Assembly: GCF_001514065.1 (NCBI RefSeq)
Contig: NZ_KQ948424.1
Location: forward strand, 248,001-312,000
Length of the DNA: 64,000 nucleotides
Direction: 5' to 3'
Source of the DNA: Streptomyces antibioticus
GTDB lineage: Bacteria > Actinomycetota > Actinomycetes > Streptomycetales > Streptomycetaceae
Position 1 is the first letter of the stretch. Each line of letters opens with the position of its first letter. A model generated the notes under the pieces. That model ran no database searches. It was not told where the DNA came from and worked only from the letters and a program-made list of their open reading frames with translations. The translations under genes and the position numbers were made by a program. Below, piece after piece: positions 14,395 through 19,586 of this stretch.

Positions 14395-15147
14395 TCATTC
14401 CGAGACACCCGTCCCGATCCGCGAGACGATTTCGTCCCAGTAGCCGGGCATCGTCTCCCAGGGATCGGCGCGGCCGCCGCGGTCCGTGCGGTCGGTGAAG
14501 TAGATCGTGGCGGCGCCCTGCCAGCGCGCGATGCGCAGGGCCTCGTCGAGATGCGGTCCCGGCACGCCGTGGACGAAGTGGCAGAAGCGGTCGGGCGGAT
14601 AGTCGGCGGTCCACTCCGCCACCTGCGACCAGCGGTAGTCGCTCCACGGGCCGGAGAAGGTGACCAGTTGGTCCGCGCTCTCGGCATAGCCCGGGTACGG
14701 GTGGGTGCCGTGGCCGAGGACGACATGGGCGTCGTCGCGGATCGCGCGGAGCGTGGTGACCGTACGGCGGATCTCCGGGAGTGCGGTGCGTTCGGTCGGG
14801 CAGCGGTCCAGGAGGAAGCCGTCGACCTTGTACCAGTCGAGGTAGCGCTGCGCGTCGGACACCATCTCGCCGAACGACCGGGCTCCGTACGTGGCGTCGA
14901 TGTGACCGAGCACCCGGACGCCCGCGTTGCGCAGTCGCCCGGCCGCCTCCAGACAGTGCGGGTCGGGGCGGCTGCCCGGGCCGTCGGCGACGTTGAGGAC
15001 GACCCAGTGCAGGGGCGCGGTGCGGGGGCGGGTGAGTTCGGCCCACTCGGCGGGGGCGACGAGCGGGTGGGCGAAGCCCGGGATGCCGAAGCCGGTGTGG
15101 AGACCGGCGCCCTGTTTCCTGGTGTTGGTGCTGGTCAGATGCGGCAT
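14395..15147 (-). CDS. Spherulation-specific family 4 (GH135-like) protein
   Basis: 250-residue TIM-barrel-type protein of the spherulin-4 family. Fungal Sph3 of this family (GH135) cleaves galactosaminogalactan. Visible family features are PLHWVVLNVADGPG (about 45-58), VLGHIDATYGARS (about 79-91), WYKVDGFLLDRCP (105-117) with two candidate acidic residues, and HVVLGHGTHPYPGY (141-154). No signal peptide or membrane segment is seen, which is odd for an extracellular glycanase, so a cytoplasmic role in synthesis or turnover is possible. Its start overlaps the end of the epimerase gene by 13 bp, so the two are translated together. Family call is good; hydrolase activity and substrate are inference. 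Confidence 0.8.
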   Translation of the reverse strand: MPHLTSTNTRKQGAGLHTGFGIPGFAHPLVAPAEWAELTRPRTAPLHWVVLNVADGPGSRPDPHCLEAAGRLRNAGVRVLGHIDATYGARSFGEMVSDAQRYLDWYKVDGFLLDRCPTERTALPEIRRTVTTLRAIRDDAHVVLGHGTHPYPGYAESADQLVTFSGPWSDYRWSQVAEWTADYPPDRFCHFVHGVPGPHLDEALRIARWQGAATIYFTDRTDRGGRADPWETMPGYWDEIVSRIGTGVSE

Positions 15148-16097
15148 GCCGCCTCCATCCAGATGTCCGCGAGGGACTCTTCGAGGTTGATACGGGGGCG
15201 CCAGCCGAGGCGGTCGCGGGCGGTGCGCACGTCGGCCTGCTGCCAGCTGCCGCAGCCGTCGGGGTACGGGTAGGCGACCGGGGCCGCGTGGTCCTGTTCG
15301 GAGCGGGGGTGGCCGATGGTGGCCCGCAGGGGCGGACCGGGCGGGCCGTCGAGTTCGTGGAGGGCACCGCCGTAGCCGGCCACGCGCGCGAGGATCGCGG
15401 CGGCGTCGCGGAGGCGGACGGCACGGCCGGAGCCGATGTTGATGACGCCCTGCGCGGCGGACAGGCTCGCGGCGTGCACGGCGCGGGCGACGTCCCGGAC
15501 GTCGATGAAGTCGCGCTGGGCGCCGAGGCCGCCGAGCTTCAGCTCGCCGTCGCCGGACTGCATGGCGCGGCGCATGGCCTCGGCGAGGCGGCCGAGGGGG
15601 GAGCCGGCGGGGGTGCCGGGGCCTGCCGGTGAGAAGACGCGCAGGACCACCGCGTCCAGGCCCGAGCCGAGGACGAGTTCCGTGGCGGCGAGTTTGCTGA
15701 CGCCGTACGGGCCGCCGGGGCGGGGGACGGCGTCCTCGGCGGTGGAGCTGCCGGGTTGGCTGGGGCCGTACTCCGCGCCGCAGCCGATCTGGACGAGCCG
15801 CGCGCCGCAGCCGCTGCGGCGCAGCGCCTCGCAGACGGTGGCCACGGCGACCGTGTTGTGCCGGGTGAGTTCGCGGGCGCCGCCTCTGGTGGCGCCGGCG
15901 CAGTTGACGACGACGCCGGGGTGGACCGCGTCGAGGAAGCGGGTGAGTGCGCCGGGGCTGCCGGACGCGAGGTCGAAGCGGACGTCCGCGTCGTCGCCTC
16001 GGCCGAGTGCGGTGAGCTGGACGGCCGGGTCGGCGAGGAGGCGGTCGGCCACGAAGCGGCCGAGGTAGCCGTTGGCTCCGATCAGCAGAACCCTCAT
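15135..16097 (-). CDS. NAD-dependent epimerase/dehydratase (NDP-sugar type)
   Basis: 320-residue extended short-chain dehydrogenase. The N-terminal Rossmann motif is GANGYLG (7-13). VVNCAGATRGG follows at strand 4, and YGVSK supplies the catalytic Tyr and Lys. The C-terminal block DRLGWRPRINLEESLADIW is typical of nucleotide-sugar epimerases. A likely role is making a UDP- or NDP-sugar for the PelF-type glycosyltransferase encoded upstream; UDP-GlcNAc/GalNAc 4-epimerase is attractive but not shown by sequence alone. The ATG at 16097 overlaps the stop of a 15-codon ORF as ATGA. The downstream spherulin-4 gene overlaps by 13 bp. Confidence 0.88.
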   Translation of the reverse strand: MRVLLIGANGYLGRFVADRLLADPAVQLTALGRGDDADVRFDLASGSPGALTRFLDAVHPGVVVNCAGATRGGARELTRHNTVAVATVCEALRRSGCGARLVQIGCGAEYGPSQPGSSTAEDAVPRPGGPYGVSKLAATELVLGSGLDAVVLRVFSPAGPGTPAGSPLGRLAEAMRRAMQSGDGELKLGGLGAQRDFIDVRDVARAVHAASLSAAQGVINIGSGRAVRLRDAAAILARVAGYGGALHELDGPPGPPLRATIGHPRSEQDHAAPVAYPYPDGCGSWQQADVRTARDRLGWRPRINLEESLADIWMEAACRI

Positions 16098-17907: not shown

Positions 17908-19586
17908 CGGGCCGCCTCCGGCGTGTTGGCGCGTACCGGCGGGCCCGCCGCCCAGCCGGGGCCGCCGCGGGCCACCACGCGGGCGCCGAGGCCGGTCCAG
18001 CGGCCGGGCATGTGGGCCTCGGCGGGGACGGCGAACGGGCGGGGCTCTCCCGTGGTGTCGTCGAGGACGACCCGGCGGACCGGGTGGCGCGAGACGATCT
18101 CCAGGTAAATGCCGTGAAATGCCGTGATGTTCTGTTCGACGGTGAACAGCTCGAGGGCGCGGGCGCGCGCGGCGGCGCCCAGGCGCGCACGGCGCTCGGG
18201 GTTGCGCAGCAGCGCCACGCACGCCTCGGCGAGCGCCCGCGGATTGCGCGGCGGTACGACGAGCCCGGTGCCGCCGATCACCTCGACCACCGCGCCGACG
18301 TCGGTGGAGACCGTCGCGCAGCCGCAGAACATGGACTCGACCAGGCTGAGCGGAAAGCCCTCGACGACGCTGGACAGCACCGTCACCGCGCCGGACGCGT
18401 ACGCCTCGGCCGGGCCCGGGATGTCCGGGCCACCGATCTCCTCGAAGGACACCGGGTTGTCGCCGACGGCGTGCAGTCCGTCCGCCTCGTCGGGGAAGAG
18501 CTGCGCGGCGAGCGCCTTGCAGTGGCCGAGGTAGGCCGCGCCCTCGCTGCCGGCGGGGACGCCGATGATCCGCAGGCGGGTCTTGGGCTCCTCCTTGCGG
18601 ATCTCCGCGAAGGCGTGGAGGAGGGAGATCAGGTCCTTCGTCGGTTCCACGCGGCCGACCCAGGCGAGGGTGTCCGGGTCCGCGCACTCCGGTGACTCGC
18701 CGACCTCCGCGAAGCGGGTGGGGTCCATGCCCGGGTAGACCGTACGGATCTTGTCGCGGTCGGCGCCGCAGCGTTCCTGCCAGCGGCGGGCGTGCGTGTT
18801 GCCGGGGGTGATGACGGCGGCCCGGGCGTAGACCTCCGCGGCGAGCCTGCCGTGGAAGGCGGCGAGCAGGGCGCGTACGGAAGGGGAGGCGTCGCCGGCG
18901 GAGAGGTGGTGCGTGCGCAGTTGGACGCCGTACTCGGTCACCAGCAGGGGTACGCCGGAGAAGTGCCGGGCCAGCAGACCGGGGAGCGCCGCCGGGCCGC
19001 CCGAGGTGGCGTGGCAGAGGTCGACCGCGCCGAGGCCGTCGTCCTCGTACCAGTCGAGGGTCAGGGGGCGCAGGGCGCGCTCCAGATGCGCGGCGACGGC
19101 GAGCAGATCGGGGACGCGCGCCGCACGGGACGCGCGAGGGGCGCCCGGCGTACGACAGGCGCGCTCCAGGGCGCGTACGGCGGTCTCGGAGCGGAGCGCC
19201 CCGCTCAGGCCGCCCTCGTCGTGGGCGAGTTCGGCGAGGCCGTACAGCGCGCTGCCGAAACGGTCCGCCTCAGCGGTCGACGCCTCCTCGGAGGGGCCCG
19301 CGCACAGGACGGCCGCCAACTCGCCGTAGTGCTCGGCGAACCGTCGGCGCGCGCGGCGCCCGTGGGCGATCCCGTCGTCCTCCACGGTCCACAGCGGGGC
19401 CGTGCGGACGCGGCTGACCTGCGGCGGCAGGGTGACCCAGCCCTCGTCCTCCTGCCGCCGGCTGCGGCTGAGCGCGTAGATGTCGAACTCGTGTTGATCG
19501 AGCCCGCGCACGAGCCGGTCGCACCACAGCCTGGCGTCACCGCTCACATACGGATAGCCACCCTCCGTAAGCAGTCCGATGCGCAC
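17904..19586 (-). CDS. PelF-type GT4 glycosyltransferase (DUF3492 N-terminus)
   Basis: 560-residue retaining GT-B glycosyltransferase. The N-terminus VRIGLLTEGGYPYVSGD followed by WCDRLVRGL and EFDIYALS matches the DUF3492 region that marks PelF and fungal Gt4c. The GT4 core has VITPGNTHARRW, LAWVGRVEPTKDLISLLHAF (nucleotide-sugar domain) and the E-x7-E element in EGFPLSLVESMFCGCA, then STDVGAVVEVIGG. No signal or membrane segment is seen, so it acts on the cytoplasmic side. The GTG start at 19586 is preceded by GGGGGT. It is the first gene of the module and overlaps the membrane-protein gene by 4 bp. PelF uses UDP-GlcNAc/GalNAc; here the donor is inferred. Confidence 0.87.
   Translation of the reverse strand: MRIGLLTEGGYPYVSGDARLWCDRLVRGLDQHEFDIYALSRSRRQEDEGWVTLPPQVSRVRTAPLWTVEDDGIAHGRRARRRFAEHYGELAAVLCAGPSEEASTAEADRFGSALYGLAELAHDEGGLSGALRSETAVRALERACRTPGAPRASRAARVPDLLAVAAHLERALRPLTLDWYEDDGLGAVDLCHATSGGPAALPGLLARHFSGVPLLVTEYGVQLRTHHLSAGDASPSVRALLAAFHGRLAAEVYARAAVITPGNTHARRWQERCGADRDKIRTVYPGMDPTRFAEVGESPECADPDTLAWVGRVEPTKDLISLLHAFAEIRKEEPKTRLRIIGVPAGSEGAAYLGHCKALAAQLFPDEADGLHAVGDNPVSFEEIGGPDIPGPAEAYASGAVTVLSSVVEGFPLSLVESMFCGCATVSTDVGAVVEVIGGTGLVVPPRNPRALAEACVALLRNPERRARLGAAARARALELFTVEQNITAFHGIYLEIVSRHPVRRVVLDDTTGEPRPFAVPAEAHMPGRWTGLGARVVARGGPGWAAGPPVRANTPEAAR

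Follow-up and report, generated by a model that had tools for sequence, protein, structure and literature searches.

In a 64,000-nucleotide stretch of the Streptomyces antibioticus genome (assembly GCF_001514065.1, contig NZ_KQ948424.1, positions 248,001 to 312,000; referred to below as the window), we analyzed four genes encoding a PelF-type glycosyltransferase (GT4), a multi-pass membrane protein (MEM), an extended short-chain dehydrogenase of the nucleoside diphosphate (NDP)-sugar type (EPI) and a spherulin-4/GH135-like protein (SPH). These genes are homologous to those of actinobacterial clusters that resemble the galactosaminogalactan (GAG) locus of Aspergillus, and their own type of locus has been remodelled at the active sites and in gene content; of this much, taken by itself, we are confident. 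An earlier note on this DNA had proposed a compact Pel/GAG-like module producing a polymer rich in N-acetylgalactosamine (GalNAc) or galactosamine (GalN). The ancestry was upheld by our results, while the proposed product became the less likely reading. We give about even chances to the complete account, mechanism included, in which the window module is a remodelled and repurposed offshoot of a GAG-like (Agd3/PelF) cluster.

The four genes lie on the minus strand as the earlier note had placed them, with which the open reading frames (ORFs) and the Pfam and NCBIfam matches agree. The GT4 gene (17904–19586; 560 aa) encodes a DUF3492 domain (PF11997, 110.8 bits) and GT4 domains, and its assignment to the PelF type was borne out by the NCBIfam model NF038011 (109 bits, cut-off 100). 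Its stop codon and the start of MEM (16507–17907; 466 aa; an ORF with no Pfam family match) overlap as ATGA; when a script sought the MEM start nearest this 4-nt overlap, it located one there and in frame for 76 of the 77 loci scanned. EPI (15135–16097; 320 aa; Epimerase PF01370, 127.3 bits) is separated from MEM by a gap of 409 nt and overlaps by 13 nt with SPH (14395–15147; 250 aa). The latter matches Spherulin4 (PF12138, 89.1 bits) and the Sph3 structure 5c5g (phmmer E 4e-8); as previously remarked, no signal peptide was seen on reading its N-terminus, no predictor having been run. The constant downstream neighbour is moeZ (13153–14331, minus strand; adenylyltransferase/sulfurtransferase), which served as a synteny marker and is not claimed as a member of the module.

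A synteny survey of 80 loci collected by SPH similarity (79 from Streptomyces, 1 from Kitasatospora) supported a conserved arrangement, since moeZ was found within 1.5 kb of SPH, together with EPI, in all 80 loci; GT4 was present in 70 loci and MEM in 75, contig ends cutting off several of them. The addition of genome stretches gave 121 loci with moeZ and EPI, including that of the window itself (L002) and short duplicates. Once loci shorter than 14 kb had been left out of the gene-content tally, 100 window-type loci were kept, of which all carried GT4, 98 carried MEM and 96 carried SPH or a remnant of it; L048 and L064 gave no MEM match. Neither an Agd3-like nor a GH114 gene was detected in any of these 100 loci or within the 64-kb window, the Agd3 query being the Agd3-like protein described below, which agrees with the observation already made that a deacetylase gene is lacking. 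Identical sequences were dropped from the counts, as were one all-gap SPH row and one wrong MEM row (L162); the rows represent related species rather than independent events, and some species may occur in both genome collections.

In the genome of S. antibioticus, DUF3492 and Spherulin4 are each matched twice and GH114 once, and the matches located outside the window cluster together on contig C2 (locus L112, G000:C2:18000-37999, at 8836–15528, minus strand). This GAG-like cluster comprises genes for an Agd3-like protein, a PelF-type GT4 (168 bits), a MEM, an SPH and a lipoprotein-like GH114 protein, the only one of the genome. The matches of the Agd3-like protein to Agd3_CE (16.7 bits) and CBM87 (15.1 bits) fall below the cut-off of 27.6 and no PDB match was obtained at E 0.01; its domain order is that of the Agd3 family. 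For comparison we assembled 22 loci, not linked to moeZ, that contain SPH and GT4, leaving out L113 (SPH alone), L115 (without any query gene) and two loci at contig ends (L117, L118). Within the fetched stretches, an Agd3-like gene was found in 19 of them, MEM in 15, GH114 in 12, EPI in 11 and moeZ in none; the presence of SPH in 22/22 is by construction, because the loci were collected by their Spherulin4 match. Bacterial agd3 operons with a glycosyltransferase, a membrane protein and GH114, joined in some Actinobacteria by spherulin-4 genes, are described by Bamford et al. (2020, PMC7229062), and therefore the GAG-like cluster is of an already known kind, from which the window type is a departure.

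The clearest change concerns SPH. The loss of GH135 active-site residues had been named beforehand as one of three results that together would speak against the module, and in the window protein the acid/base Glu is indeed replaced (Ser165), as is a conserved Asn (Gly145), while Asp114 is kept. Glu is missing from the position of Sph3 Glu222 in 109/110 window-type SPH sequences (S 79, A 15, C 5, T 3, R 3, L 2, N 1, Q 1, E 1), whereas it is present in 22/22 GAG-like sequences, including that of C2, which keeps Asp, Asn and Glu, and in 25/25 relatives not linked to moeZ (a set overlapping the 22). The Asn preceding this site is lost in 108/110 and kept in 22/22, and the catalytic Asp is found in 93/110 and 22/22, respectively. 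The residue following the catalytic Asp, Glu167 of Sph3, is changed in both types and so does not separate them. We take the catalytic Asp to be Asp166 of Sph3. PMC12054363 prints the GH135 catalytic pair as Asp196/Glu222, where we regard Asp196 as a misprint because the Asp–Glu spacing here is 56 residues, as from 166 to 222. Our argument rests on Glu222; N202 is a label obtained by the same offset. The drift of the Glu site over eight residues looks like that expected after loss of constraint. In six loci (L175–L179 and L181), moreover, only 115–243 nt separate EPI from moeZ and SPH is gone or reduced to a fragment. These loci retain GT4, MEM (partly matched in L176) and EPI, and SPH thus seems dispensable to the rest of the module.

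EPI had been taken for an epimerase resembling Uge3. We rejected an assignment to the GalE/Uge3 type, since the galE model scored 31 bits against a cut-off of 262 and the closest solved relative is a GDP-6-deoxy-D-lyxo-4-hexulose reductase (2pk3), the nearest solved relatives being GDP-4-keto-6-deoxyhexose reductases. The window protein keeps the GxxGxxG and YxxxK motifs and carries Cys106 in place of the catalytic Ser. Cys occupies this position in 112/113 window-type sequences, in contrast to Ser in 11/11 GAG-like ones; YxxxK is kept in 113/113 window-type sequences and GxxGxxG in 112 of the 114 rows of both types, the other two being gapped. Such near-fixation of a single residue would be the pattern expected after a change of function.

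A comparable shift was found in GT4. Arg312, Lys317, Glu409 and Glu417 are kept in the window enzyme, the active-site His is replaced by Tyr219, and the second Gly in the loop near the N-terminus by Asp17. Among window-type enzymes Tyr takes the place of the TEHG-motif His in 100/103 (His in 2, Asp in 1), and Asp or Glu replaces the loop Gly in 98 of the 100 that have a residue there; the 22 GAG-like enzymes all have His and Gly. Both Glu residues of the EX7E motif are present in 103/103 window-type sequences, Lys in 99/103 and Arg in 98/103. The GT4 active-site His contacts the 6-OH of the donor in related enzymes, and we hypothesize that a 6-deoxy donor, which lacks this group, would fit the change to Tyr. 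As at the EPI site, replacement by one nearly fixed residue suggests altered rather than lost function. In the profile alignment Tyr219 falls on the corresponding His of MshA, which in MshA/PimA is one of four substrate-binding residues (PMC4506291).

MEM begins with a low-complexity segment, (AD)n and (AG)n repeats at about 17700–17790 (minus strand), and has a conserved helical N-terminal domain of approx. 56 residues; its structural model has about nine membrane helices. MEM proteins of window-type loci range from 385 to 701 aa, and their core has a median of 358 residues (n = 43) versus approx. 460 in GAG-like loci (n = 17). The suggestion that MEM is of the PelG type was not supported at the level of sequence and profile: PelG (PF16933) matched none of 43 MEM orthologues, and hhalign against two actinobacterial PelG proteins gave a probability of 0.1. 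A structural search with the model, on the other hand, ranked flippases of the MOP superfamily (MurJ, MATE) as its first 11 matches, which had no sequence match to MEM. PelG is itself classed in this superfamily; MOP flippases have 12 helices, in contrast to the approx. nine, plus an additional N-terminal helical domain, of the MEM model. No PelG over the cut-off was found in the genome of S. antibioticus, and a weak match (G000:C9, 25.8 bits, cut-off 29; L164) was discarded, as that locus has no match to any of the module queries. Within the phylum, PelG exceeded the cut-off in 2 of 198 genomes, both from one other family. These two genes (L165, L166) adjoin one for an Agd3-like protein with 27–29% identity to that of C2.

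The window type of locus is widespread. Its gene order, GT4-MEM-EPI-SPH-moeZ, is shared by five further genera of the family, examined at sites picked for a good SPH match. Searches with the SPH protein gave matches in 257 of 297 family genomes and, counted by hand, in 149 of 153 genomes of the genus, 139 of them at E 1e-70 or better, a level that undercounts the window type, because three weaker matches (L180, L182, L183) proved to belong to it. EPI was present in all 84 Streptomyces genomes sampled and, at E 1e-60, in none of 15 genomes from other families of the order. The PF12138 profile matched 23 of 296 genomes of the class, and this count was not used for the distribution, since the profile misses window-type loci found with the SPH protein. 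In each of 16 genomes picked for a single SPH match, DUF3492 occurs in no gene other than that of the window-type GT4 (in one case split in two within a single frame), and the module is therefore kept without a second PelF-type gene. A search of titles and abstracts yielded no paper treating the moeZ-linked locus.

Phylogenetic trees separated the two types. Window-type sequences form a clade in the GT4 (support 0.97) and SPH (0.914) trees and also group together in the EPI tree, where the GAG-like side has support of 1.0. A sequence from another genus (L132) is the first branch in the EPI tree (0.861 for the remainder) and, with weak support (0.24), in the GT4 tree; in the SPH tree it is not the first branch and sits in a group with support of 0.0. 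This locus alone retains both the EPI Ser and the SPH Glu, has lost the SPH Asn and already carries Tyr in GT4. This one early-branching genome suggests that the GT4 His changed first, then the EPI Ser and SPH Glu, and that loss of SPH followed. Median ratios of nonsynonymous to synonymous substitution (dN/dS) between the window and ten relatives were 0.07 for EPI, the lowest of the module, 0.17 for SPH, 0.23 for GT4 and 0.39 for MEM, compared with 0.12 for moeZ, a figure raised by the low dS of that gene. With values of 0.07–0.39, the module as a whole is not decaying.

In the mechanism that we propose, EPI would make or modify an NDP-sugar, and GT4, in which most donor-binding residues are intact but Tyr stands in place of the active-site His, would attach this altered donor to a glycan. 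MEM, the translation of which is in tandem with that of GT4, would carry this glycan across the membrane, its N-terminal helical domain perhaps docking GT4. If no deacetylation takes place, a GH135 step would be unneeded, and SPH may persist as a vestige without catalytic activity, with binding as its most extensive remaining role; as product we would expect a surface glycan distinct from cationic Pel or GAG. A broader version, which we put forward tentatively and consider less likely than not to hold in full, is that all Streptomyces carry a dedicated, hitherto undescribed envelope glycan made by GT4, MEM and EPI. It would have arisen from a GAG-like cluster after a switch of donor sugar (e.g. 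to a 6-deoxy sugar) and the shedding of deacetylase and hydrolases, with GH135 left as a pseudoenzyme that is now being lost, and with an intermediate stage retained in the L132 lineage.

This account has to be weighed against a module that still makes the GalNAc/GalN-rich polymer, for which speak the PelF score just above the cut-off, the Spherulin4 match, the homology to loci bearing Agd3 and GH114, and the presence of GH114 elsewhere in 13 of the 16 genomes having the window type only. Set against these are the lost GH135 Glu, an EPI unlike GalE, the complete absence of Agd3-like and GH114 genes from the 100 window-type loci, a MEM without PelG likeness in a genome without PelG over the cut-off, the separate GAG-like cluster in that genome, and the three of 16 window-type genomes that lack any GH114; we consider such a product quite improbable. 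Only slightly better placed is an assembly of pseudoenzymes, in which GT4, EPI and SPH would be non-catalytic and a membrane complex would sense an NDP-sugar or glycan and regulate some other process. The joint substitution of catalytic-site residues in three enzymes, two of them nearly fixed, is consistent with this, as are the low dN/dS of EPI and the shortened MEM core. However, the kept YxxxK and GxxGxxG motifs of EPI and the EX7E motif and Lys of GT4 make these sites look like those of working enzymes, and the idea seems improbable to us.

A lipid-linked or small-molecule acceptor instead of a polymer, as in a glycolipid or a wall-linked oligosaccharide, would account for the lack of any remaining processing enzymes and for a single GT4 beside a MOP-like membrane protein, an arrangement resembling the flipping of lipid-linked sugars. 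PelF-type enzymes are, however, known from polymer-making systems (PMC7112168), and we regard this acceptor as unlikely, though less so than a sensory complex. Hardly credible is an operon decaying without present function: the drift of the SPH acid/base site over eight other residues and the missing or remnant gene in six loci could be read in this way, but EPI is present in 84/84 genomes, synteny extends to five further genera, and the dN/dS values of the four genes are 0.07–0.39.

Two recognised systems resemble the module closely apart from the GAG-like cluster itself. The Aspergillus GAG cluster also contains a PelF-like GT4 (Gtb3/Gt4c) and, as its epimerase, Uge3. Unlike that cluster, the window locus lacks Agd3 and Ega3, its SPH is without Glu222, its EPI is not of the GalE type, and GT4 and the membrane protein are separate genes; a spherulin-4/GH135 family protein is common to both (PMC12054363). 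The Gram-positive Pel operon, pelDEADAFG, likewise places a PelF-type GT4 beside a multi-pass membrane protein (PMC7112168), from which the window differs in that MEM is not PelG by Pfam or hhalign. As for PelA, PelD and PelE, at which no search was aimed, the genes flanking the module read as moeZ and a peptide-type ABC transporter. The agd3 operons share with the window type a cytoplasmic glycosyltransferase and a multi-spanning membrane protein, a description that also fits the C2 cluster; the window type departs from them by the absence of Agd3-like and GH114 genes, the disabled SPH and the nearly fixed EPI and GT4 changes. A form of this kind is not described in the portions of PMC7229062 consulted.

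Several further features were observed. A predicted leader ORF of 15 codons (MITSRPDHEAPGAAR; 16094–16141, minus strand), preceded by AAGGAG, overlaps the EPI start with its stop as ATGA. Similar ORFs (M[IT]TSR...PGAAR) are coupled to the EPI start in most Streptomyces loci compared, a conservation that may partly reflect the EPI ribosome-binding site, since the end of the leader overlaps it. Upstream of GT4, on the same strand, we read genes of a peptide-type ATP-binding cassette (ABC) transporter (19777–25061), and an ABC gene adjoins GT4 upstream in 52 of the 100 window-type loci. One GAG-like locus bearing EPI (L152) encodes a LegB-like 4,6-dehydratase (11037–12901, minus strand; 454.6 bits, cut-off 475) and a sugar-1-phosphate nucleotidyltransferase below the cut-off of its model, hinting at an additional deoxy sugar; L126, L155 and L162 also read as containing parts of this pair. 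In L113 (G243:C10:195000-212000), a Spherulin4 gene at 9304–8669 keeps Asp, Asn and Glu among neighbours that read as prophage ORFs (terminase-like, HNH-like), and its product could be a phage enzyme directed against a GAG-like coat.

Automatic annotation applies the names PelF and spherulin-4 to this locus, from which one may readily conclude that Streptomyces uses it to produce Pel or GAG. Our results tell apart two paralogous loci, one of them GAG-like, with genes for Agd3-like and GH114 proteins, the other remodelled. A galactosamine-containing polysaccharide has been reported from Streptomyces walls (cited in PMC7229062); it now becomes testable which of the two loci, if either, yields this polysaccharide, and what the remodelled locus makes.

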